Shown here piece by piece: positions 2,932-29,902 of a stretch of 32,143 nt of DNA. Source of the DNA: Actinomycetota bacterium. Lineage in GTDB: Bacteria > Actinomycetota > CADDZG01 > WHSQ01. The position numbers and the translations under genes were made by a program. The stretch lies in contig JACDAL010000026.1 in the NCBI GenBank assembly GCA_013695465.1, positions 1 to 32,143 on the forward strand, given 5' to 3'. How positions within the stretch are numbered: the stretch's first letter is position 1; each line of letters starts with the position of its first letter. The notes under the pieces were generated by a model. It saw only the letters and a list, made by a program, of their open reading frames with translations, was not told where the DNA came from and searched no databases.

Positions 2932-3855
2932 ATGATGAGAGTGGCGGCTATCGACGCGGGGACCAACTCCGTGCGTCTGCTGGTTGCCGAGGAGCACGCG
3001 GGAGGGATGCGAACTCTCGACCGCCGCTTGGTGATCACGCGCCTCGGGCAAGGCGTCGATCGAAGTCGTCTGCTGGCTCCGGACGCCATAACGAGGACGT
3101 TGGAGACGATCGCCGACTATGCCGCCACCTGTGGCGAGTACGACGTACGCCGTCTCAGGGTCACCGGTACCTCGGCAGTCAGAGATGCGGGAAATCGGGA
3201 CGACTTCTTGGGGGCCGTGAGGGAGCTGACGGGCCAATTGCCCGAGCTGCTCACCGGCGAACAGGAAGCGCGGATAACCTTCGCCGGAGTGCTCTCGGAT
3301 CTGGACCAGAGCGGGCCGATGATGGTAGTCGACATCGGCGGAGGATCGACCGAGCTTGTCTACGGACAAGGGTTTCCAGAAAAGCTCACGTCGCTCGATG
3401 TGGGTTGCGTGCGAATGTTCGAAAAGCATTTGCATTCCGATCCTCCGGCAGAGTCCGAGCTTCAGGCGCTACGCGCCGAGGTCTCGTACGCGCTGCGGAG
3501 CTTCAAGGCGACGTGTCTGGTGCCCGCCGGAACGCGATTCGTGGGGGTGGCGGGGACCCTCGCTCAGCTCGCGACGCTCAAGAGTGGCCTTCCCCTCTAC
3601 GATCCCGATGTCTCGCACCAGATGGTCCTGTCTCACGGCGATGTGCGCTTGCTGGCCAAGAGGCTCGAAAGGCTGCCGCTGGCTCAGCGCCGGCGAATCA
3701 CGGCACTCGAGCCGGGACGCGCCGATGTGATCATTGCCGGCGTAGAGATACTTCTTTGCGTCATGGAAGCCTTCGATGTTGCGGAAATCATGTTTTCAGA
3801 GAAGGACATTCTCGACGGACTCGTGATCGAGTTGCTGGAGCGCAGCGAGTCGTGA
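2932..3855 (+). CDS. ppx: Ppx/GppA family exopolyphosphatase / guanosine pentaphosphate phosphatase
   Basis: A 307-residue actin-like ATPase-fold phosphatase. Family members degrade inorganic polyphosphate and/or pppGpp. It has the phosphate-1 loop AIDAGTNSVRLLVAE at the N-terminus, VTGTSAVRDAGNRDDF, the catalytic glutamate in LLTGEQEARITF, and phosphate-2 MVVDIGGGSTELVYG. It is the short, two-domain actinobacterial type, lacking the C-terminal HD-like domain of E. coli Ppx. GAGGAG at 2923-2928 serves either the ATG at 2932 or the one at 2935; the latter has better spacing. Its TGA overlaps the GTG of the next gene. Polyphosphate versus pppGpp preference cannot be read from the sequence. Confidence 0.93.
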   Translation: MMRVAAIDAGTNSVRLLVAEEHAGGMRTLDRRLVITRLGQGVDRSRLLAPDAITRTLETIADYAATCGEYDVRRLRVTGTSAVRDAGNRDDFLGAVRELTGQLPELLTGEQEARITFAGVLSDLDQSGPMMVVDIGGGSTELVYGQGFPEKLTSLDVGCVRMFEKHLHSDPPAESELQALRAEVSYALRSFKATCLVPAGTRFVGVAGTLAQLATLKSGLPLYDPDVSHQMVLSHGDVRLLAKRLERLPLAQRRRITALEPGRADVIIAGVEILLCVMEAFDVAEIMFSEKDILDGLVIELLERSES

Positions 3856-4466
3856 CCGTTTTCTATTTCGTACGTCACGGCGTCACCTCACATACGGGCC
3901 ACCGGCTATCGGGATGGATGCCGGGCATCCACTTGACAGATGAAGGGCGCGACCAAGCAGAGGCAACGGCCGAGATGCTCACGGCAGTGCCGTTCAAGGC
4001 CATCTACTCGAGTCCCATTGATCGCACGATGGAAACCGCTGCACCGATCGCTCGAATACACGGACTCGAGATCGTGCAAGCACCGAACCTGGGCGAGGTT
4101 GAATACGGCAAGTGGTCCAACCGAACGTTCAAGACATTGGGTAAGACCAAACTGTGGGAGAAGGTGCAACGCTATCCATCGGGTGTTCGGTTTCCCGAGG
4201 GTGAGACATTGCGAGAGGTGCAGACGCGAGCGGTCGAGGAAGTGGAGGAAATCGCGGAGCGGCATCGAAGGCAGATCGTGTGCTGTGTGTCTCACGCGGA
4301 TGTGATTCGGCTACTGGCGGCTCACTACCTGGGCGTTCACATCGATTTATTTCAGAGGCTAACGGTGGCGCCCGCATCGGTTAGCGTCATCGCGCTGAAC
4401 GACGGGAGGCCCTTGGTCGTCAACCTCAACACATCCCCCCCGAACCCAGCGAAGGACAGATCATAG
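3852..4466 (+). CDS. Histidine phosphatase family protein (MSMEG_4193 type)
   Basis: A 204-residue phosphoglycerate-mutase-like protein. The catalytic FVRHG motif is at the N-terminus; SSPIDRTMETA, the acid/base region GEVEYGKW and the second catalytic His in VSHADVIR follow in the expected order. The GTG at 3852 overlaps the ppx stop; the longer open frame upstream lies over ppx and is a shadow. This subfamily (named after MSMEG_4193) is typically next to DUF3090 and SCO1664-family genes in Actinomycetota, as here. The substrate is unknown; the context with two uncharacterised proteins does not resolve it. Confidence 0.9.
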   Translation: MTVFYFVRHGVTSHTGHRLSGWMPGIHLTDEGRDQAEATAEMLTAVPFKAIYSSPIDRTMETAAPIARIHGLEIVQAPNLGEVEYGKWSNRTFKTLGKTKLWEKVQRYPSGVRFPEGETLREVQTRAVEEVEEIAERHRRQIVCCVSHADVIRLLAAHYLGVHIDLFQRLTVAPASVSVIALNDGRPLVVNLNTSPPNPAKDRS

Positions 4467-4981
4467 TGAACCCAGATATCTTTACGGCCGACTACGTCGG
4501 CGAACCGGGAAAGCGGTCGTTTTATCTGCAGGCTCGAGGTGAAGAAGGCTTGCTGAGCTTTCCGATCGAGAAGCAGCAGGTCGTCGTCCTGGCCGAGAAG
4601 CTGCGCGAGCTTCTGTTGCTGGTCGATGGTGACGACACCGTGACCTCTGCCTCGGCTGGGCGCGATCCTGCGCTTGCGTTCACAGAACCGGTTTCTGATG
4701 AGACTCAAGTCGGCACAATCGGGCTGGCCTACGAAGAGGACGCCGATCTCGTCGTCGTCCTGCTCCAGCCCTTGCCGGAAGAGAGCGACGAAGATGAGGT
4801 AGAGCTCGACGAGGCATCCGGGGTCCATCTGGAGCTGAGACGCGACCAGGTGAGGGCTTTTGTGCTGCACGCCATCGCGGTCGTCAACGAGGGCCGGGCG
4901 ATATGCCAGCTCTGCGGGCTCCCCATGGATCCCGCGGGCCACAAATGCCCGGCCTCGAACGGACACCGGCTCAGCGATTAG
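4466..4981 (+). CDS. DUF3090 family protein
   Basis: A 171-residue actinobacterial protein of unknown function. It begins with the family start IFTADYVGEPGKRSFYLQ, continues with SFPIEKQQVVVLAEKL, and ends with a small metal-binding type module: CQLCGLPMDPAGHKCP, followed by ASNGHR, a CxxC...C/H pattern that looks like a zinc knuckle. The middle contains a strongly acidic stretch (EESDEDEVELDEASG). The GTG start overlaps the TAG of the preceding phosphatase (TAGTG). The conserved trio phosphatase-DUF3090-SCO1664 implies a shared role, not established. Confidence 0.9.
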   Translation: MNPDIFTADYVGEPGKRSFYLQARGEEGLLSFPIEKQQVVVLAEKLRELLLLVDGDDTVTSASAGRDPALAFTEPVSDETQVGTIGLAYEEDADLVVVLLQPLPEESDEDEVELDEASGVHLELRRDQVRAFVLHAIAVVNEGRAICQLCGLPMDPAGHKCPASNGHRLSD

Positions 4982-4990
4982 TACGGACAC

Positions 4991-5713
4991 ATGTCCGGTC
5001 TGGGCGACATCGTCGAACTGCTCAATACGGGAGAGGTCGAAGTTTTGGGCCTGCTTCCATACTCGTCGAACTATGTCTTTCTCACCCGGATCAGGGGCGG
5101 AGGCAGAGAGGCGCTTGCGGTCTACAAGCCCACGCGCGGCGAGCGGCCGCTGTGGGACTTTCCCACCGGCACCTTGGCCGCGCGCGAGGTCGCCGCGTTC
5201 ATGTTGAGCGAAGCCGCGAGCTGGGATCTCGTACCGCCTACGGTGTTGCGCTCGGACGCACCTTTGGGGGCCGGCTCGCTGCAACTCTTTATCGAGCACG
5301 ATCCGGAACGACACTGCTTCGTGCTCGCCGAAGAGCGCCTCGACGACCTTCGCCCCTTTGCTGCGTTCGATGCCGTGATCAATAATGCGGACCGCAAAGG
5401 CGGGCATGTCGTCGAAGACTCCGACGGCAGGCTGTGGGGAGTCGACCACGGACTTGCTTTCAACGTCGAGCCCAAGCTGCGCACTGTGCTGTGGGCGTTC
5501 GCAGGCGAACGCCTCGACGTCTCGCTGAAAGCGCGTCTTCAATGCCTGCGCGATCGCATGCAGCAGCCCGGCGGGGTGGGCCCACAACTCGCGCGACTGT
5601 TGAGCCGGGCCGAGACGGCGGCGGCCCTGAAACGCTTGGAGACATTACTTCGCAGCGGGCGCTTTCCCGAGCCGGATCCGACCCAGCATCACCTCCCCTG
5701 GCCCTTGCTCTGA
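4991..5713 (+). CDS. SCO1664 family protein (PI3/4-kinase-like fold)
   Basis: A 240-residue protein of the actinobacterial SCO1664 family. It resembles small PI3/4-kinase-like proteins: a lysine in LAVYKPTRGERPLWDFPTG, where such proteins bind ATP, then a catalytic-loop-like FDAVINNADRKGGHV, and a DHGLAFN segment in the position of the metal-binding DFG-like motif. The kinase-like reading is inference from these motifs. The ATG at 4991 follows the DUF3090 stop by 9 bases; no good ribosome-binding site is visible. It is the last gene of the (+) run that begins with mazG and ends 13 bases before the tRNA. Confidence 0.87.
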   Translation: MSGLGDIVELLNTGEVEVLGLLPYSSNYVFLTRIRGGGREALAVYKPTRGERPLWDFPTGTLAAREVAAFMLSEAASWDLVPPTVLRSDAPLGAGSLQLFIEHDPERHCFVLAEERLDDLRPFAAFDAVINNADRKGGHVVEDSDGRLWGVDHGLAFNVEPKLRTVLWAFAGERLDVSLKARLQCLRDRMQQPGGVGPQLARLLSRAETAAALKRLETLLRSGRFPEPDPTQHHLPWPLL

Positions 5714-5726
5714 GAACATCGACGTG

Positions 5727-5800
5727 GCCCCCGTATCCCAACCGGTAGAGGAAGGGCACTTAAAATGCTCACAGTGTGGGTTCGACTCCCACCGGGGGCA
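5727..5800 (+). tRNA. tRNA with anticodon UAA and a class I (short variable loop) fold
   Basis: A full cloverleaf can be drawn by hand. Acceptor GCCCCCG (5727-5733) pairs with CGGGGGC (5793-5799), discriminator A5800, CCA not encoded. The D stem is UCC (5736-5738) with GGA (5750-5752) and GG in the loop. The anticodon stem GGGCA (5754-5758) pairs with UGCUC (5766-5770, one G-U), loop CUUAAAA, anticodon UAA (5761-5763). The variable region is only 5 bases (5771-5775). T arm GUGGG / UUCGACU / CCCAC (5776-5792). UAA reads the Leu codon UUA, but bacterial tRNA-Leu normally has a long variable arm, which is absent here. The cloverleaf is secure; amino-acid identity is not. Confidence 0.85.
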
Positions 5801-6035
5801 CTCGGCTTGGGATCGGCTTGATCTTGTCGCCGCCACCGTGAGGTGTCGGGGCCGTCTGTCAAGCCGCTCATGGTAGGCATCCACGCTGCTCGCCGGTGGT
5901 GAAAGCGAACCGTGGACACGTGCACACCGAAAACTGTGGGTAAACGCGGACCGTGGACTTTTCCCCCCGCCAGCCGCCCCCCTTCAAGCGGCCCGCCTCT
6001 CCCGCCGGGGTTCCCTGGTACGCCCGCCGAAACCC
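5801..6035. other. Intergenic region between tRNA and ParA-like gene
   Basis: About 235 bases without a convincing gene. It contains two copies of a CCGTGGAC element about 45 bases apart (near 5910 and 5949) and a short TCGGCTTG duplication just after the tRNA. No integrase or clear attachment-site repeat of the tRNA 3' end was found. Confidence 0.4.
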
Positions 6036-7400
6036 CTACAGCGTCAGCCCCAGTCGCCGCCAGTCCGAGATCAGGGCCACCGCCAGCTCGCGGCACGCCC
6101 TCTGCAACGACTCCGGCGCGTCCCGCCACGAGAACTCGGCGGTGGCGAGCCTGGCCGCGGCCTCCGGCTCGCTCGGGAGCACGCACATGCCGTGCGCATG
6201 GGGGACGAAGCGGCAGAAGCGCTCGAGGTCGAGGCTCGAGCCCGAGTGCGGCATCTTGTTCACCACCAGCGTGATCGGCTTGCGGGCCTTGCCCAGCAGG
6301 ACTGCCGCTTCGGCGACCAGGCTGGCCGCCGCGGGCTCGGAGTCGGTGACGAGCACCAACTGATCGCAGGTCGCCATGGCGGCGCGGGCGGCCGCGTCCT
6401 GCAGCCCTGTTCCGCAGTCGAGCACCACGATGCCGACGAAATCCTTGAGCCGTTCGATGACCTCCACATAGGAGGGATAGTCGAGCTTCTGCATACGCGA
6501 GGGGTCGGTCGGCGCGGGCAGCACCATCAGGCCGTGAGGGGCGCGTCCGAGCTGCGCATCGAGAGCGGTGAGCGAAAGTTGAGAATCGCCCAGCCGCTCG
6601 AGCACGTCGTCGACGCAGATCGTTTGCCCGGGGGCGAGCACCCTGCCAAGTGAGCCGTAGTCGGGGTTCGTGTCGATGGCCACGACCCGATCCCTCCGCA
6701 ACAGAGCCAGGAGAGTGCCCAGCAGAGCCGTGGTCGTCGTTTTCCCCACGCCTCCCTTCGGAGAGACGACCGCAATTGTTGCGCACCGCCTGAGCCTCGG
6801 CGACGCGATCGACGCTTCGAGCTGCTCCAGGTAGTTCGTCGATCGCCACTTGTGCCGGGCCCGCTGTGATGGGGGCGGCGTGCGGAGCTTGGTGAGTGCG
6901 GCGGGCGTAGGGCCTGCAACCGGCAGCGACAGCTCCTTCGCCTCGGCCCCCTCCGGCTCCGGCTGGTTCCGAAAGTCGTAGGCGGGCGAGAGCTGGTCAT
7001 CTATGGAGGGTGACTCGACCAGGGCTTTCACGGTGGCCGTGAGCCTTCGGGAGAGACTCATCCTCTGCGGCAGCGCCGCCCGAGTTCGTTGCGGCGGGCT
7101 CAGTTTGTCGCCGTTGGATGCCGGCGAGGGCTTCGGGTCCTTTTCCCGCCACGGCGACAGATAGAGAGTGGCGCCCTCCAGGATCCCGCTCGAGCGGAGC
7201 GAGGAGGCAGGGGGCAGAGGCCTTCCGGAGGCCGGAGCCAGCGACCACATCGTCGCCTCGCTCTCTTTGTCCTGGGCGACTTCTTCCGCCCCCACGAGCT
7301 CGACTAGATCTGGGAGGAGCTGGTTGAGGGGTGCATCGGAAGGCAGGTCGACCGACCTCGAATCCTCCGGTCCCACCACGGTGATGGATATCGTGCTCAC
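6036..7400 (-). CDS. MinD/ParA-like ATPase with N-terminal ubiquitin-like (EsaB/YukD-type) domain
   Basis: A 454-residue protein. Residues about 1-85 look like the ubiquitin-like YukD/EsaB domain that also forms the N-terminus of EccD (TISITVVGPEDSRSVDLP, then GILEGATLYLSP). Residues about 86-190 are a Pro/Ser-rich, charged linker. From about 198 comes a ParA/MinD ATPase: deviant Walker A SPKGGVGKTTTTALLG, the AIDTNPDYGSLG loop, and Walker B IVVLDCGTG. This architecture recalls EspI-like ATPases near ESX/type VII secretion loci, but no ESX gene is in the window. The GTG at 7400 is chosen because the preceding bases carry a GGCGGA-like ribosome site and the domain begins there; an in-frame ATG at 7448 is an alternative. 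Partners and cargo unknown. Confidence 0.85.
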   Translation of the reverse strand: MSTISITVVGPEDSRSVDLPSDAPLNQLLPDLVELVGAEEVAQDKESEATMWSLAPASGRPLPPASSLRSSGILEGATLYLSPWREKDPKPSPASNGDKLSPPQRTRAALPQRMSLSRRLTATVKALVESPSIDDQLSPAYDFRNQPEPEGAEAKELSLPVAGPTPAALTKLRTPPPSQRARHKWRSTNYLEQLEASIASPRLRRCATIAVVSPKGGVGKTTTTALLGTLLALLRRDRVVAIDTNPDYGSLGRVLAPGQTICVDDVLERLGDSQLSLTALDAQLGRAPHGLMVLPAPTDPSRMQKLDYPSYVEVIERLKDFVGIVVLDCGTGLQDAAARAAMATCDQLVLVTDSEPAAASLVAEAAVLLGKARKPITLVVNKMPHSGSSLDLERFCRFVPHAHGMCVLPSEPEAAARLATAEFSWRDAPESLQRACRELAVALISDWRRLGLTL

Positions 7401-7701
7401 GTCGATCCGCCCCCGCCTGATGAACTGGCCCCGCTTACTAAAACCCAATCAATAGTGAGTACCGATTGCAGGTTTATGGATATTGAACATAGCGACTTCA
7501 AATTGGATCTTGCCGGCGCTAGAGTTCCCTTCAACGTTGCCTCCCACCAGGTCCGCTGGCTCCGCAGTGTATCAGCGGGTAGTCGCCAAGTCACCCAGTT
7601 TCAACCAATCATTCAGGAACCGTGTTGTTTTAGCAGCTAATTGTCAAAGAGTGTTCAGTATCGAGGTGCCGGGTGTTACGGCAATTGCGAAGCCCAAGGG
7701 C
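7401..7701. other. Gene-free stretch between fabI and the ParA-like gene
   Basis: About 300 bases, less GC-rich than the flanks. Both flanking genes are on the minus strand, so this must hold the promoter of the ParA-like gene and the end of the fabI transcript. Short open frames on the plus strand here have no recognisable motifs. No strong hairpin was seen. Confidence 0.4.
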
Positions 7702-25396: not shown

Positions 25397-26962
25397 GTGC
25401 AAGCCAACCGAAAGGGAGCACCCGACTCATTGGAGATAACCAGCGCGCCTAAGCAGACGGCCAAGTGGGGCAAGGTGCTCGACCAGACCCGCTGCATCGG
25501 GTGCCACGCGTGTACGACCGCGTGCAAGTCTGAGAACGAGGTGCCGCTGAGTGTGACGCGCACTTACGTGAAGTCGGTCGAGGTCGGCTACTTCCCCCAT
25601 ACTCGGCGCTCATTCCAGGTTACGCGCTGCAACATGTGCGAAAGCGCCCCGTGCGTGGCGGCCTGTCCGACCGGCGCCATGTATCAACGGGACGATGGAC
25701 TGGTCGATTTCGACAAGTCGATCTGTATCGGCTGCAAGGCTTGCATCGCCGCCTGTCCTTACGACGCTATCTTCATCAACCCCGAGGACCAGTCGGCCGA
25801 GAAGTGCAACTTCTGCTCCCACCGGCTCGACATCGGTCTCGAACCGGCGTGCGTGGTCGTGTGCCCGGTCGAGGCGATTTTCGTGGGGGATCTCAACGAT
25901 TCCGCCTCGAGGGTGGCCAAAGTCGTGAACCGTGAGCCGGTAACTGTCAGGCGTCCGGAGAAGGAGACGCGACCCAAAGTCTTTTACCACGGGGCTCATC
26001 AGGCGACCCTCGACCCCATCGCGGCGCGCCGCCCGGGCGGAGGCTCATTCATGTGGAGTGAGCAGACTGCCGGCGGGGATCACGTCGTTTCCGGTCATCC
26101 CGAATCATGGAACAACTCGAGCGCGGCAGCGCTGCTGTCCTATGATGTTCCCCACCGCGCACCGTGGGATTGGCGCGTAAGCCTCTACACGTGGACCAAG
26201 GCCATTGCCGCCGGAGCATATCTGGTGCCGTTGCTGCTCATCCTTGCCGGGTCGATCTCGTGGGACAGCGATATATTCACGCAGGCGGCCCCGATCACAG
26301 GCTTGCTTTTCCTGGCGATTACCGGAGTGCTTCTGATCGCCGATCTCAGTCACCCCGGACGCTTCTACATGATTTTCACGCGGCCACAGTGGAGCAGCTG
26401 GCTGGTAAAGGGTGGCTTTCTGATTGCCGCGTACGCGGGCGTGCTGACGCTGCATCTGCTCGCCACCGTCGTCGGATTAGGCATCGCTCACAAAATGCTT
26501 GCCGTACCGGGCGTTCCTCTCTCGATCATGGCTGCCGTTTACACTGCTTATCTGTTCGCACAATCCAAGGGCCGGGACATGTGGCAGAGCGCGCTATTGC
26601 CGCCCCACATGTTCGTGCAGATGACGCTCGCCGGATCTGCCGTGCTGCTATTGCTTGCCCCGGTTATCGAGGAAGCTGCTGTGACCCCACTCGCCCTCGT
26701 CCTCGCAGCCGGTGCTCTCGGCCACCTCCTGATGGTGTGGGGAGAGGCCACCCTGACCCACCCGACCGCTCATGCTCACCTCGCCGTGTGGGAGATGACG
26801 AGAGGCCGCTTCAGTAACTTTTTCTGGGTCGGAGTGGCACTGGTGACCGTGGGACTCACCGCACCTCTGATCGGGCCGCTGGCGGCCCCAGTGGCACTCG
26901 CCGGCCTCCTGGCTCACGAACACGCATATGTGCAGGCGGCCCAGGCGGTGCCCCTTGCGTAG
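25397..26962 (+). CDS. Fused four-[4Fe-4S] ferredoxin (DmsB/PsrB type) and NrfD/PsrC membrane subunit
   Basis: A 521-residue fusion. Residues about 25-195 form an electron-transfer subunit with sixteen Cys in four groups: 33/36/39/43, 78/81/86/90, 110/113/116/120 and 137/140/152/156, enough for four [4Fe-4S] clusters. After a linker, residues about 270-520 form an NrfD/PsrC-type quinone-reactive membrane domain with about eight segments (WTKAIAAGAYLVPLLLIL, LFLAITGVLLIADLSHPGRF). In most systems these are two genes. No Tat signal precedes the ferredoxin part, so it should face the cytoplasm. The GTG at 25397 follows a G-run; a TTG at 25430 after AAAGGGAG is an alternative. It shares an operon with the catalytic subunit 27 bases downstream. 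Confidence 0.9.
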   Translation: MQANRKGAPDSLEITSAPKQTAKWGKVLDQTRCIGCHACTTACKSENEVPLSVTRTYVKSVEVGYFPHTRRSFQVTRCNMCESAPCVAACPTGAMYQRDDGLVDFDKSICIGCKACIAACPYDAIFINPEDQSAEKCNFCSHRLDIGLEPACVVVCPVEAIFVGDLNDSASRVAKVVNREPVTVRRPEKETRPKVFYHGAHQATLDPIAARRPGGGSFMWSEQTAGGDHVVSGHPESWNNSSAAALLSYDVPHRAPWDWRVSLYTWTKAIAAGAYLVPLLLILAGSISWDSDIFTQAAPITGLLFLAITGVLLIADLSHPGRFYMIFTRPQWSSWLVKGGFLIAAYAGVLTLHLLATVVGLGIAHKMLAVPGVPLSIMAAVYTAYLFAQSKGRDMWQSALLPPHMFVQMTLAGSAVLLLLAPVIEEAAVTPLALVLAAGALGHLLMVWGEATLTHPTAHAHLAVWEMTRGRFSNFFWVGVALVTVGLTAPLIGPLAAPVALAGLLAHEHAYVQAAQAVPLA

Positions 26963-26989
26963 ACGGCAAAGCCTTAGGAAGGAGCCCGG

Positions 26990-29902
26990 ATGACGGAGAG
27001 GAGCCTCGACGACCTTGCACGTCGAGTGAGCGCGGCACGAGCAGAGGTCGAAGCCCGTGGCGAAACCTTCTATCCGGGCCCCAGTCGCATCAATCTCGCT
27101 GCTTTTCCTCCTAAGGAGCGCTGGGACAATTGGGTCGAACTGGATTCCCGCTCGTTTCCGAAGAGGATAGAGAAGCGCTACATGCTCGTCCCGACGACCT
27201 GCTTCAACTGCGAGTCGGCCTGCGGTCTCCTCGCTTACATCGACAAAGAAACGCTTCAAGTGCGCAAATTCGAGGGCAACCCGGAGCATCCGGGCTCCCG
27301 GGGGCGCAACTGCGCCAAAGGGCCCGCCACGCTGAACCAGGTCACCGACCCGGACCGGATCCTCTATCCGCTCAGGCGTACAGGAGCGCGTGGGGAGGGC
27401 AAGTGGGTCAAGGTGGATTGGGACGAGGCGCTCGACGAGCTCGCCGCACGAATCCGTAAGGCGATCACCGAGGATCGCCACAACGAGGTCATGTATCACG
27501 TCGGGCGCCCCGGCGAGGATGGCTTCACGGAGCGTGTGCTTGCCACGTGGGGAGTTGACGGACACAACTCGCATACGAATGTGTGCTCCTCTGGTGCGCG
27601 CGCCGGCTACCACTTCTGGACGGGGATCGACCGGCCGAGCCCCGACCACGCGAACGCCAAGGTGATCTATCTCATCAGCTCACATCTGGAGGCAGGCCAC
27701 TACTTCAACCCTCATGCCCAGCGTGTTATGGAGGCCAAGCAAGCCGGTGCCAAGCTGATCGTGCTCGATGTGCGTCTGTCCAACACCGCCACCCACGCCG
27801 ATCATTGGTTGTCGCCCTATCCGGGAAGCGAGGCCGCGATCAATTTGGCCATCGCCAACCACCTCATTCAGAATGACCTATACGACCGTGAGTTCGTCAG
27901 GCGGTGGTGGAACTGGAAGGAGTACCTGGCAAGCGAGCATCCGGAATTGGAGGAGCGCTTCGAAGTTTTCGAGCCCCTCCTCAAGGAGCTCTACAAGGAG
28001 TTCACCTTCGAGTTCGCCGCAGCGGAATCTGGCGTCGAGGTCGAAACCCTCGCCGACGTCGCAGCAATCGTTGCCACCGCAGGGACCCGTCTGTCGACAC
28101 ACAACTGGCGCTCGGCTGCGGCAGGAAACCTCGGCGGTTGGCAGGTCTCTCGCACATTGTTCTTGCTCAGCGCCTTGCTGGGCGCGATCGCTACGCCGGG
28201 CGGGACCTATCCGAACGCGTGGAACAAGTTCGTTCCCAAACCGATCTACTCCCCGCCACATCCCCTCACCTGGAACGAGCTCACATGGCCGCTTGAGTAT
28301 CCGTTGGCTCTGAACGAGCTGAGCTTTTTGTTGCCGCACTTCCTCAGAGAGGGGAGGGGGAAGCTCGACGTCTATTTCACCCGTGCCCACAATCCGGTGT
28401 GGACTAACCCTGATGGCTTTTCGTGGATAGAATCACTTACCGATCTAGACAAGGTGGGTTTGCATGTTGCACTGACGCCGACGTGGAACGAGACCGCCTA
28501 TTTCGCCGACTACATCCTGCCGATGGGGCACTCTTCCGAGCGTCACGATGTCCATTCCTACGAGCAGTACGACGGTCAGTGGATCGGATTCCGCCAGCCC
28601 GTGCTCAAGGTCGCACGAGAGCGGCTGGGTGAGAGCGTCGCCGATACGCGTGAGGTCAACCCCGGAGAGGTATGGGAGGAGAACCAGTTTTGGATCGAGC
28701 TGTCATGGCGCATCGACCCCGACGGGGTTCTGGGTATCCGCCGCTACTACGAGTCCGAGAAGAGTCCGGGCACCAAGCTGAGCGTGGACGAGTACTACGG
28801 GTGGATGTTTGAGAACTCGGTGCCCGGGCTGCCCGAGAAGGCCTCTGCCGAGGGACTCAGCCCGCTCGAGTACATGCGTCGCTACGGTGCTTTCGAGATC
28901 AGTAAGGGCGTGGGGCGGGTTCATGAGCAGCAGGTCTCGCCAGACGAACTCACCGGGACGGCCGAGAGTCGCTTTGGGCGTGTCTTCGCCACCTCCGTCA
29001 AGCCTCCGTCTTGCAACGTTGTCCCACAGGCGACCCCGGAGCCCGATCAATTCGGTCGCCGAGCCGTTGGCGTTCGTATCGACGGCGAGGTGCTGCGCGG
29101 CTTTCCCACTCCTTCGGGGAGGCTCGAGTTTTTCTCGACGACACTGGCGAGCTGGGGTTGGAGGGAGCACGCGCTCCCCGGATACATTCGAAGTCATATC
29201 CACCCCGCCGCTCTCTCCCCGCAGCAGATGCCGCTTATCTCGACCTTCCGATTACCGATCCAGATCCACACGCGTTCGGCCAACGCCAAGTGGCTCGACG
29301 AAATAGCTCACTCGAACCCGCTGTGGATGCATCCAGTGGATGCCGCCAGATTCGAAATCGGGTCTTCGGATCTCGTGCGAGTCAGCACGGAGATCGGACA
29401 TTTCGTGGTCAAGGTCTGGATCACCGAAGGCATCCGGCCCGGGGTAGTTGCCTGCAGCCACCACATGGGCCGGTGGAAGCTCACCGATCAGGGTCAGCGC
29501 CAGATGATGGCGACCGTCGATCTCGACAACACTGATGGTCGCTGGGGAATGAAGCGGCGCAGCGGGGTCGAGCCTTACGAGTCGGCTGATGCGGATACCA
29601 AGCGCATCTGGTGGACCGACGTGGGCGTGCACCAGAACCTCACGTTTCCCGTGCACCCAGACCCGATTTCTGGTCAGCATTGCTGGCACCAGGCCGTGAG
29701 TGTCTCGAAGGCTGAGCCCGGCGATTCGTATGGGGACATTTTTGTGGACACCACCAAGGCGCACCAGGTCTACCTGCGATGGATGGAATTGACTAGAAAC
29801 GCGCTTGCAGTTTCTCCGGATCAGACGCGCCGGCCGTACTGGCTGATGCGTCCGCTAAAACCCGCCATAGAGGCGTTCAGGCTCCCGAAGGTGCGGGCGT
29901 GA
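26990..29902 (+). CDS. Molybdopterin oxidoreductase catalytic subunit (DMSO reductase family)
   Basis: A 970-residue catalytic subunit. Near the N-terminus Cys71, Cys74, Cys78 and Cys108 (CFNCESACG, then GRNCAKGPA) bind one [4Fe-4S] cluster. Cys199 in HTNVCSSGARAG is the probable molybdenum or tungsten ligand. The pterin-binding and C-terminal MopB_CT-type domains follow (LPLISTFRLPIQIHTRSANA; SSDLVRVSTEIGHFVVKV). There is no twin-arginine signal, so the enzyme is predicted to be cytoplasmic. Together with the fused FeS/NrfD subunit this resembles SoeABC (sulfite) or PadBCD (phenylacetyl-CoA) architecture; polysulfide, thiosulfate or tetrathionate enzymes usually carry Tat signals. The substrate cannot be decided. 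AGGAAGGAG precedes the ATG. Confidence 0.92.
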   Translation: MTERSLDDLARRVSAARAEVEARGETFYPGPSRINLAAFPPKERWDNWVELDSRSFPKRIEKRYMLVPTTCFNCESACGLLAYIDKETLQVRKFEGNPEHPGSRGRNCAKGPATLNQVTDPDRILYPLRRTGARGEGKWVKVDWDEALDELAARIRKAITEDRHNEVMYHVGRPGEDGFTERVLATWGVDGHNSHTNVCSSGARAGYHFWTGIDRPSPDHANAKVIYLISSHLEAGHYFNPHAQRVMEAKQAGAKLIVLDVRLSNTATHADHWLSPYPGSEAAINLAIANHLIQNDLYDREFVRRWWNWKEYLASEHPELEERFEVFEPLLKELYKEFTFEFAAAESGVEVETLADVAAIVATAGTRLSTHNWRSAAAGNLGGWQVSRTLFLLSALLGAIATPGGTYPNAWNKFVPKPIYSPPHPLTWNELTWPLEYPLALNELSFLLPHFLREGRGKLDVYFTRAHNPVWTNPDGFSWIESLTDLDKVGLHVALTPTWNETAYFADYILPMGHSSERHDVHSYEQYDGQWIGFRQPVLKVARERLGESVADTREVNPGEVWEENQFWIELSWRIDPDGVLGIRRYYESEKSPGTKLSVDEYYGWMFENSVPGLPEKASAEGLSPLEYMRRYGAFEISKGVGRVHEQQVSPDELTGTAESRFGRVFATSVKPPSCNVVPQATPEPDQFGRRAVGVRIDGEVLRGFPTPSGRLEFFSTTLASWGWREHALPGYIRSHIHPAALSPQQMPLISTFRLPIQIHTRSANAKWLDEIAHSNPLWMHPVDAARFEIGSSDLVRVSTEIGHFVVKVWITEGIRPGVVACSHHMGRWKLTDQGQRQMMATVDLDNTDGRWGMKRRSGVEPYESADADTKRIWWTDVGVHQNLTFPVHPDPISGQHCWHQAVSVSKAEPGDSYGDIFVDTTKAHQVYLRWMELTRNALAVSPDQTRRPYWLMRPLKPAIEAFRLPKVRA

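Follow-up and report, generated by a model that had tools for sequence, protein, structure and literature searches.

Textbooks treat the long extra arm as universal in bacterial tRNA-Leu. The tRNA studied here resembles Streptomyces bldA in its UAA anticodon, its leucine-type D loop, the rarity of the codon it reads and its location downstream of eno and ppx (~7–9 kb off in Streptomyces). The two molecules differ in the variable region and in the core: bldA combines a long variable arm with a G12-C23/G13 core, whereas in our tRNA a 5-nt loop goes with a C12-G23/C13 core.

According to a 2023 review, the arm is absent in animal mitochondria only (PMC9976931). Animal mitochondrial tRNA-Leu(UUR) is also a class I molecule with a UAA anticodon, recognized mainly through A73 and A14 (PMC9976931), but it belongs to a mitochondrial genome, is served by a mitochondrial LeuRS and lost its arm in an unrelated event. 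Another short-armed tRNA-Leu, with a UAG anticodon, is known from a mycobacterial tRNA cluster (PMC6582537). Unlike the family described below, it is not a sole isoacceptor: it sits among 11–14 tRNA genes, and a normal long-armed UAG tRNA is found elsewhere in the genome. For M. tuberculosis, tRNA-Leu-2, 3 and 5 were named as long-variable-loop molecules (PMC11541572); short ones are not discussed there, and a count of three long-armed species fits two short ones. In the tRNAscan-SE 2.0 paper (PMC8450103), lack of the arm is cited as an indication of isotype conflict. Apart from remarks on single tRNAs, our literature search (most subscription journals and preprints lay outside it) found nothing on a bacterial class I tRNA-Leu family or on a class switch in place.

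The locus that we analysed is part of a 32,143-nt stretch of actinomycetotal DNA (the window). Its tRNA is, very probably, an ordinary tRNA-Leu(UAA) in class I form and likely the sole UUA reader of its genome, which arose from the class II orthologue of bldA by loss of the arm in place and is charged by LeuRS.

A class I tRNA-Leu(UAA) and its surroundings

The gene lies at 5727–5800 on the forward strand, with the anticodon at 5761–5763, the variable loop at 5771–5775 and the discriminator A at 5800; A73 is followed directly by CUC, so CCA is not encoded. Run on the window, ARAGORN called a tRNA-Leu(taa) at 5727–5801 (+), and the Rfam model RF00005 matched 5727–5800 from end to end (54.9 bits, E 2.2e-9), well past its gathering score of 29. 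Both programs agree on a single tRNA in the window, on the forward strand. Together with our reading of the sequence, they bear out the UAA anticodon, the five-base variable region, the discriminator A and the lack of an encoded CCA that a preliminary description of this DNA had listed. They also uphold its remark that the molecule contradicts the textbook rule of class II bacterial tRNA-Leu, as the variable loop (ACAGU) is 5 nt long and forms no long arm.

The same description held that all stems pair, with one G-U. This is true of the acceptor stem (7/7 paired), the T stem (5/5) and the anticodon stem (5 bp, including the G-U), which closes the loop CU-UAA-AA, but not of the D stem, where three pairs (10-25, 11-24 and 12-23) are followed by a C13-A22 mismatch. 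A mismatch at the same place, G13-A22, is found in tRNA-Leu, and a 3-bp D stem with a 13-22 mismatch is the geometry of tRNA-Leu, unlike that of most class I tRNAs. The leucine determinants of the E. coli type are complete (A73, A14, the A15-U48 Levitt pair, G18G19 and A20a), and UAA is one of the leucine anticodons (NAG or YAA). Taken alone, the window tRNA folds modestly better than its shuffled versions (z -1.88). A scan for sigma-70-like promoters and terminators beside the tRNA found none.

Thirteen nucleotides upstream of the tRNA ends a SCO1664-family gene (4991–5713, +), which serves as a marker of the shared locus. It is preceded on the same strand by a DUF3090 gene (4466–4981) and a histidine phosphatase gene (3852–4466, with one UUA codon), a conserved upstream neighbourhood in the window's family. 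Farther upstream, also on the forward strand, are the Ppx/GppA phosphatase gene ppx (2932–3855) and the enolase gene eno (705–1988), both phylum-wide markers upstream of tRNA-Leu(UAA). Directly downstream, on the opposite strand, an N-terminal YukD domain of type VII secretion is fused to a ParA-like ATPase (6036–7448).

UUA makes up 7 of the 1006 leucine codons in the window. The UUA codons noted earlier in the SCO1664, histidine phosphatase, NrfD and catalytic-subunit genes are present, and others are found in fabI and in the cupin and transglutaminase-like genes. At 25397–29902, a ferredoxin-NrfD-like fusion is followed by the catalytic subunit of a molybdenum oxidoreductase, which has only distant kin among the solved structures (ArrA, thiosulfate reductase and formate dehydrogenase); its alignment with PDB entries gave no useful coverage of its UUA codon.

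A conserved family in Actinomycetota and phages

Class I tRNA-Leu(YAA) was found in 44 of 139 Actinomycetota genomes. With the 74 bases of the window tRNA as a query, relatives with the anticodon UAA or CAA were recovered from 36 of 101 Actinomycetota genomes, and a pattern scan of public genomes yielded at least 119 matching stretches. Among the matches listed are Mycobacterium, Corynebacterium, Nocardia, Rhodococcus, Streptomyces, Bifidobacterium and Microbacterium; a few of those listed are labelled Rokubacteria, Acidobacteria, Deltaproteobacteria, Alphaproteobacteria, Chthonomonadales and Synechococcus. Phages also carry relatives (Pseudomonas phage ZC03, cyanophage P-RSM6 and Sinorhizobium phage Phosso), and their database records annotate these short-armed genes as tRNA-Leu. 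The Enterococcus phage vB_Edu_21C1 (locus L282) has a class I tRNA-Leu with a UAG anticodon at 1494–1569, adjoined by an annotated tmRNA; short-armed tRNA-Leu is therefore not limited to YAA anticodons. According to the preliminary description, its reading would fail if the homologues were an already described isoacceptor. The homologues are indeed conserved and annotated as tRNA-Leu, but the class switch is undescribed in the papers searched.

All 125 distinct family members have A73 and U48, and 124 of them have a 5-nt variable loop. Across 35 diverse members, 98.3% of the cells in the alignment pair and, for 16 of the 20 base pairs, both sides have changed, which beats every shuffle and slide control; the D-stem pairs 10-25 and 11-24 are among those that covary. 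It is this pairing and covariation of the family that excludes a chance fold. The earlier view that the molecule looks functional and decodes UUA is supported. Outside the variable loop, the family most resembles class II Leu(UAA) and Leu(CAA). A simple D-loop pattern failed to split Leu from Asn and Gly tRNAs, and we therefore used D-stem geometry, covariation and locus instead.

Genomic position and a proposed change of class

Where at least 5 kb of upstream sequence was available, eno and/or ppx were found upstream on the same strand in 22 of 31 class I UAA loci, against 0 of 28 class I CAA loci. Of the class II UAA loci, Streptomyces bldA included, 18 of 20 have one or both genes upstream on the same strand. 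Regardless of class, the UAA gene follows eno-ftsB-ppx, and the window tRNA occupies the position of bldA. Closer comparisons point the same way. A member of the window's family (G010) has a class II UAA tRNA ~19 nt after its SCO1664 homologue, where the window has the class I form after 13 nt, and in family f42 the same histidine phosphatase and DUF3090 genes are found ~6 kb from the UAA tRNA of either class.

The CAA locus, too, is common to both classes. Two Streptomyces-type genomes of one genus, G044 (class I) and G135 (class II), match there gene for gene, and the same holds for pairs from family f25 and from Mycobacterium/Nocardia. Both states of the UAA gene occur within four families, as do both states of the CAA gene. 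In several families a response-regulator gene adjoins tRNA-Leu(CAA) of either class (L093, L094, L097, L308 and L311; also L095, L098, L310 and L312); judging by eye from its sequence, we take it to be an ANTAR protein of the PdtaR type.

Judged by gene order, the window tRNA is the positional orthologue of bldA after what appears to be an in-place switch from the class II to the class I form. How the gene may have changed is best seen in family f13, where a class I (G061) and a class II (G084) gene, both with eno upstream, have identical acceptor stems and T arms. Differences are seen in the variable arm, at A9/G9, C12/G12, C13/G13 and G23/C23, at position 20 and over part of the anticodon stem. 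Hybrids of either kind (a class II core with a short loop or a class I core with a long arm) were not found in the 139 genomes, and it follows that arm and core change together. Three apparent hybrids with a class I core and a long arm were rejected: in two of them, both class I tRNAs, a second TTCGA happens to occur downstream, and the third is an unrelated match. The class I tRNA of G121, from family f42, retains G9; A9 is therefore usual rather than required.

We propose that the locus originally carried a class II tRNA-Leu(UAA), the orthologue of Streptomyces bldA. Its long variable arm would have been lost in place, and the D-arm core would have changed along with it (G12-C23 to C12-G23, G13 to C13 and, usually, G9 to A9), while the leucine determinants A73, A14, A15-U48, G18G19 and A20a would have been retained. 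Loss of the arm is the likelier direction, rather than gain, given that tRNA-Leu is generally class II.

The short form of the same molecule, with the same function, could instead have spread horizontally, for example through phages that carry class I tRNA-Leu, and replaced the class II form by recombination. We consider this unlikely, though it deserves some weight. The close relatives in phages ZC03, P-RSM6 and Phosso are in its favour, as are the recurrence of one core (C12, C13 and G23) in distant lineages and the absence of core/arm hybrids among the 139 genomes. It has to contend with the conserved locus and with the f13 pair, whose acceptor stem and T arm are identical across the classes, so the whole gene was not swapped; conversion of the central part is still compatible with that pair.

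Replacement of the class II tRNA and the meaning of UUA

Within the 139 Actinomycetota genomes, the UAA tRNA is class I in 33, class II in 63 and of both classes in none (Fisher p 3.7e-11), and the CAA tRNA is class I in 15, class II in 76 and of both classes in none (p 2.5e-6); the exact patterns behind these counts matched neither form in 43 genomes for UAA and in 48 for CAA. The separate class II tRNA-Leu(UAA) that the preliminary description had envisaged was thus not found by these patterns beside any class I UAA gene. Both isoacceptors are class I in four genomes; class I UAA is combined with class II CAA in 20, and the reverse is seen in five.

Complete genomes, for which we established the tRNA sets by covariance search and inspection of regions, agree with these counts. 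G061 and G081 have class II Leu tRNAs for CAG, GAG, UAG and CAA and UAA as class I only, and G058 has class II tRNAs for CAG, GAG and UAG with class I UAA and CAA; in all three, the class I tRNA is the sole UAA reader found. In Mycobacterium asiaticum and Corynebacterium pelargi, we found the two YAA isoacceptors in class I form only. The class I tRNA-Leu(UAA) and (CAA) of these two genera belong to the same family as the window tRNA and show no essential difference, except that the window genome has class I UAA only, its CAA tRNA being class II. Streptomyces sp. ms191 shows the opposite arrangement, with CAA as class I and UAA as class II (bldA). An exception comes from outside Actinomycetota: a Rokubacteria draft (G164, locus L124) is the only genome in which we saw class I and class II tRNA-Leu(UAA) together, which may reflect contamination or a real intermediate.

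UUA and UUG have kept their leucine meaning. In loci with a class I UAA tRNA, 123 UUA codons had homologous columns, in which leucine accounted for 51% and the next residue for 8%; UUG in the same loci gave 48% leucine and the control CUG 63%, all of these percentages being depressed by spurious frames, as the open reading frames were called mechanically. At the UUA codon of the window's fabI, the aligned residue of mycobacterial InhA is a leucine.

Every complete genome that we tested carries a single LeuRS. Leucine identity in E. coli rests on A73, A15-U48, G18G19 and A20a, and the long arm is dispensable (PMC9976931). Because the determinants are kept and the arm is not needed, the single bacterial LeuRS most likely still charges the short tRNA with leucine. 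The one-for-one replacement of class II, the leucine columns at UUA and the single LeuRS point to the same charging. The window tRNA would be expressed, leucylated by the ordinary LeuRS and most likely read UUA in the ordinary way. Two pieces of LeuRS, each cut by a contig end, are present in the window's genome (G000, contigs C1 and C94); they may stem from contamination, from a variant strain or from a second gene copy.

The preliminary description had raised the possibility of a non-canonical charging enzyme or of an amino acid other than leucine, and this is not supported. If a class I tRNA specific for some other amino acid had acquired a UAA anticodon by mutation, it would insert a different residue at UUA, and both the class I architecture and the nearest non-leucine tRNA of the window's own genome, an Arg(CCG) with the same acceptor stem, could be read in this way. 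We hold such recoding to be very improbable: the UUA and UUG columns are mostly leucine, a class II tRNA-Leu is replaced one for one at the bldA locus, class II Leu(YAA) tRNAs are the nearest in sequence once the variable loop is set aside, the complete genomes tested have one LeuRS each and the leucine determinants are intact. The suggestion of a degenerate or specialised copy, silent beside a normal class II UAA tRNA, fits the promoter and terminator scan and the draft state of the window genome (89.5%), where a second UAA tRNA is possible, but it merits almost no credence for a positional orthologue of the normal UAA isoacceptor that replaces class II one for one, is the sole UAA tRNA found in complete genomes, stays intact in more than 100 distinct sequences and shows compensatory changes throughout its family.

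An ordinary tRNA-Leu(UAA) in class I form has consequences for annotation, as tools that take a missing arm for a sign of a pseudogene or a wrong isotype may misjudge real tRNAs. It is also possible, as a tentative extension, that tRNA class is switchable, the UAA and CAA genes of Actinomycetota having undergone several in-place switches from the class II to the class I form, each with the same linked core change and under selection, for instance for escape from toxins or phage enzymes that grip the arm. The natural sister pairs, which share gene, locus and anticodon and differ in having the arm, offer a test of its role for LeuRS, for discrimination by SerRS, on the ribosome and for toxins that read the arm.

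The data contradict, for a large bacterial phylum that includes Mycobacterium, the view that the arm was lost in animal mitochondria only. On our reading, many actinobacteria, Mycobacterium among them, read UUA and/or UUG with a tRNA-Leu that lacks the long arm, and one and the same gene, at an unchanged chromosomal position, can be long-armed in one species and short-armed in a close relative.
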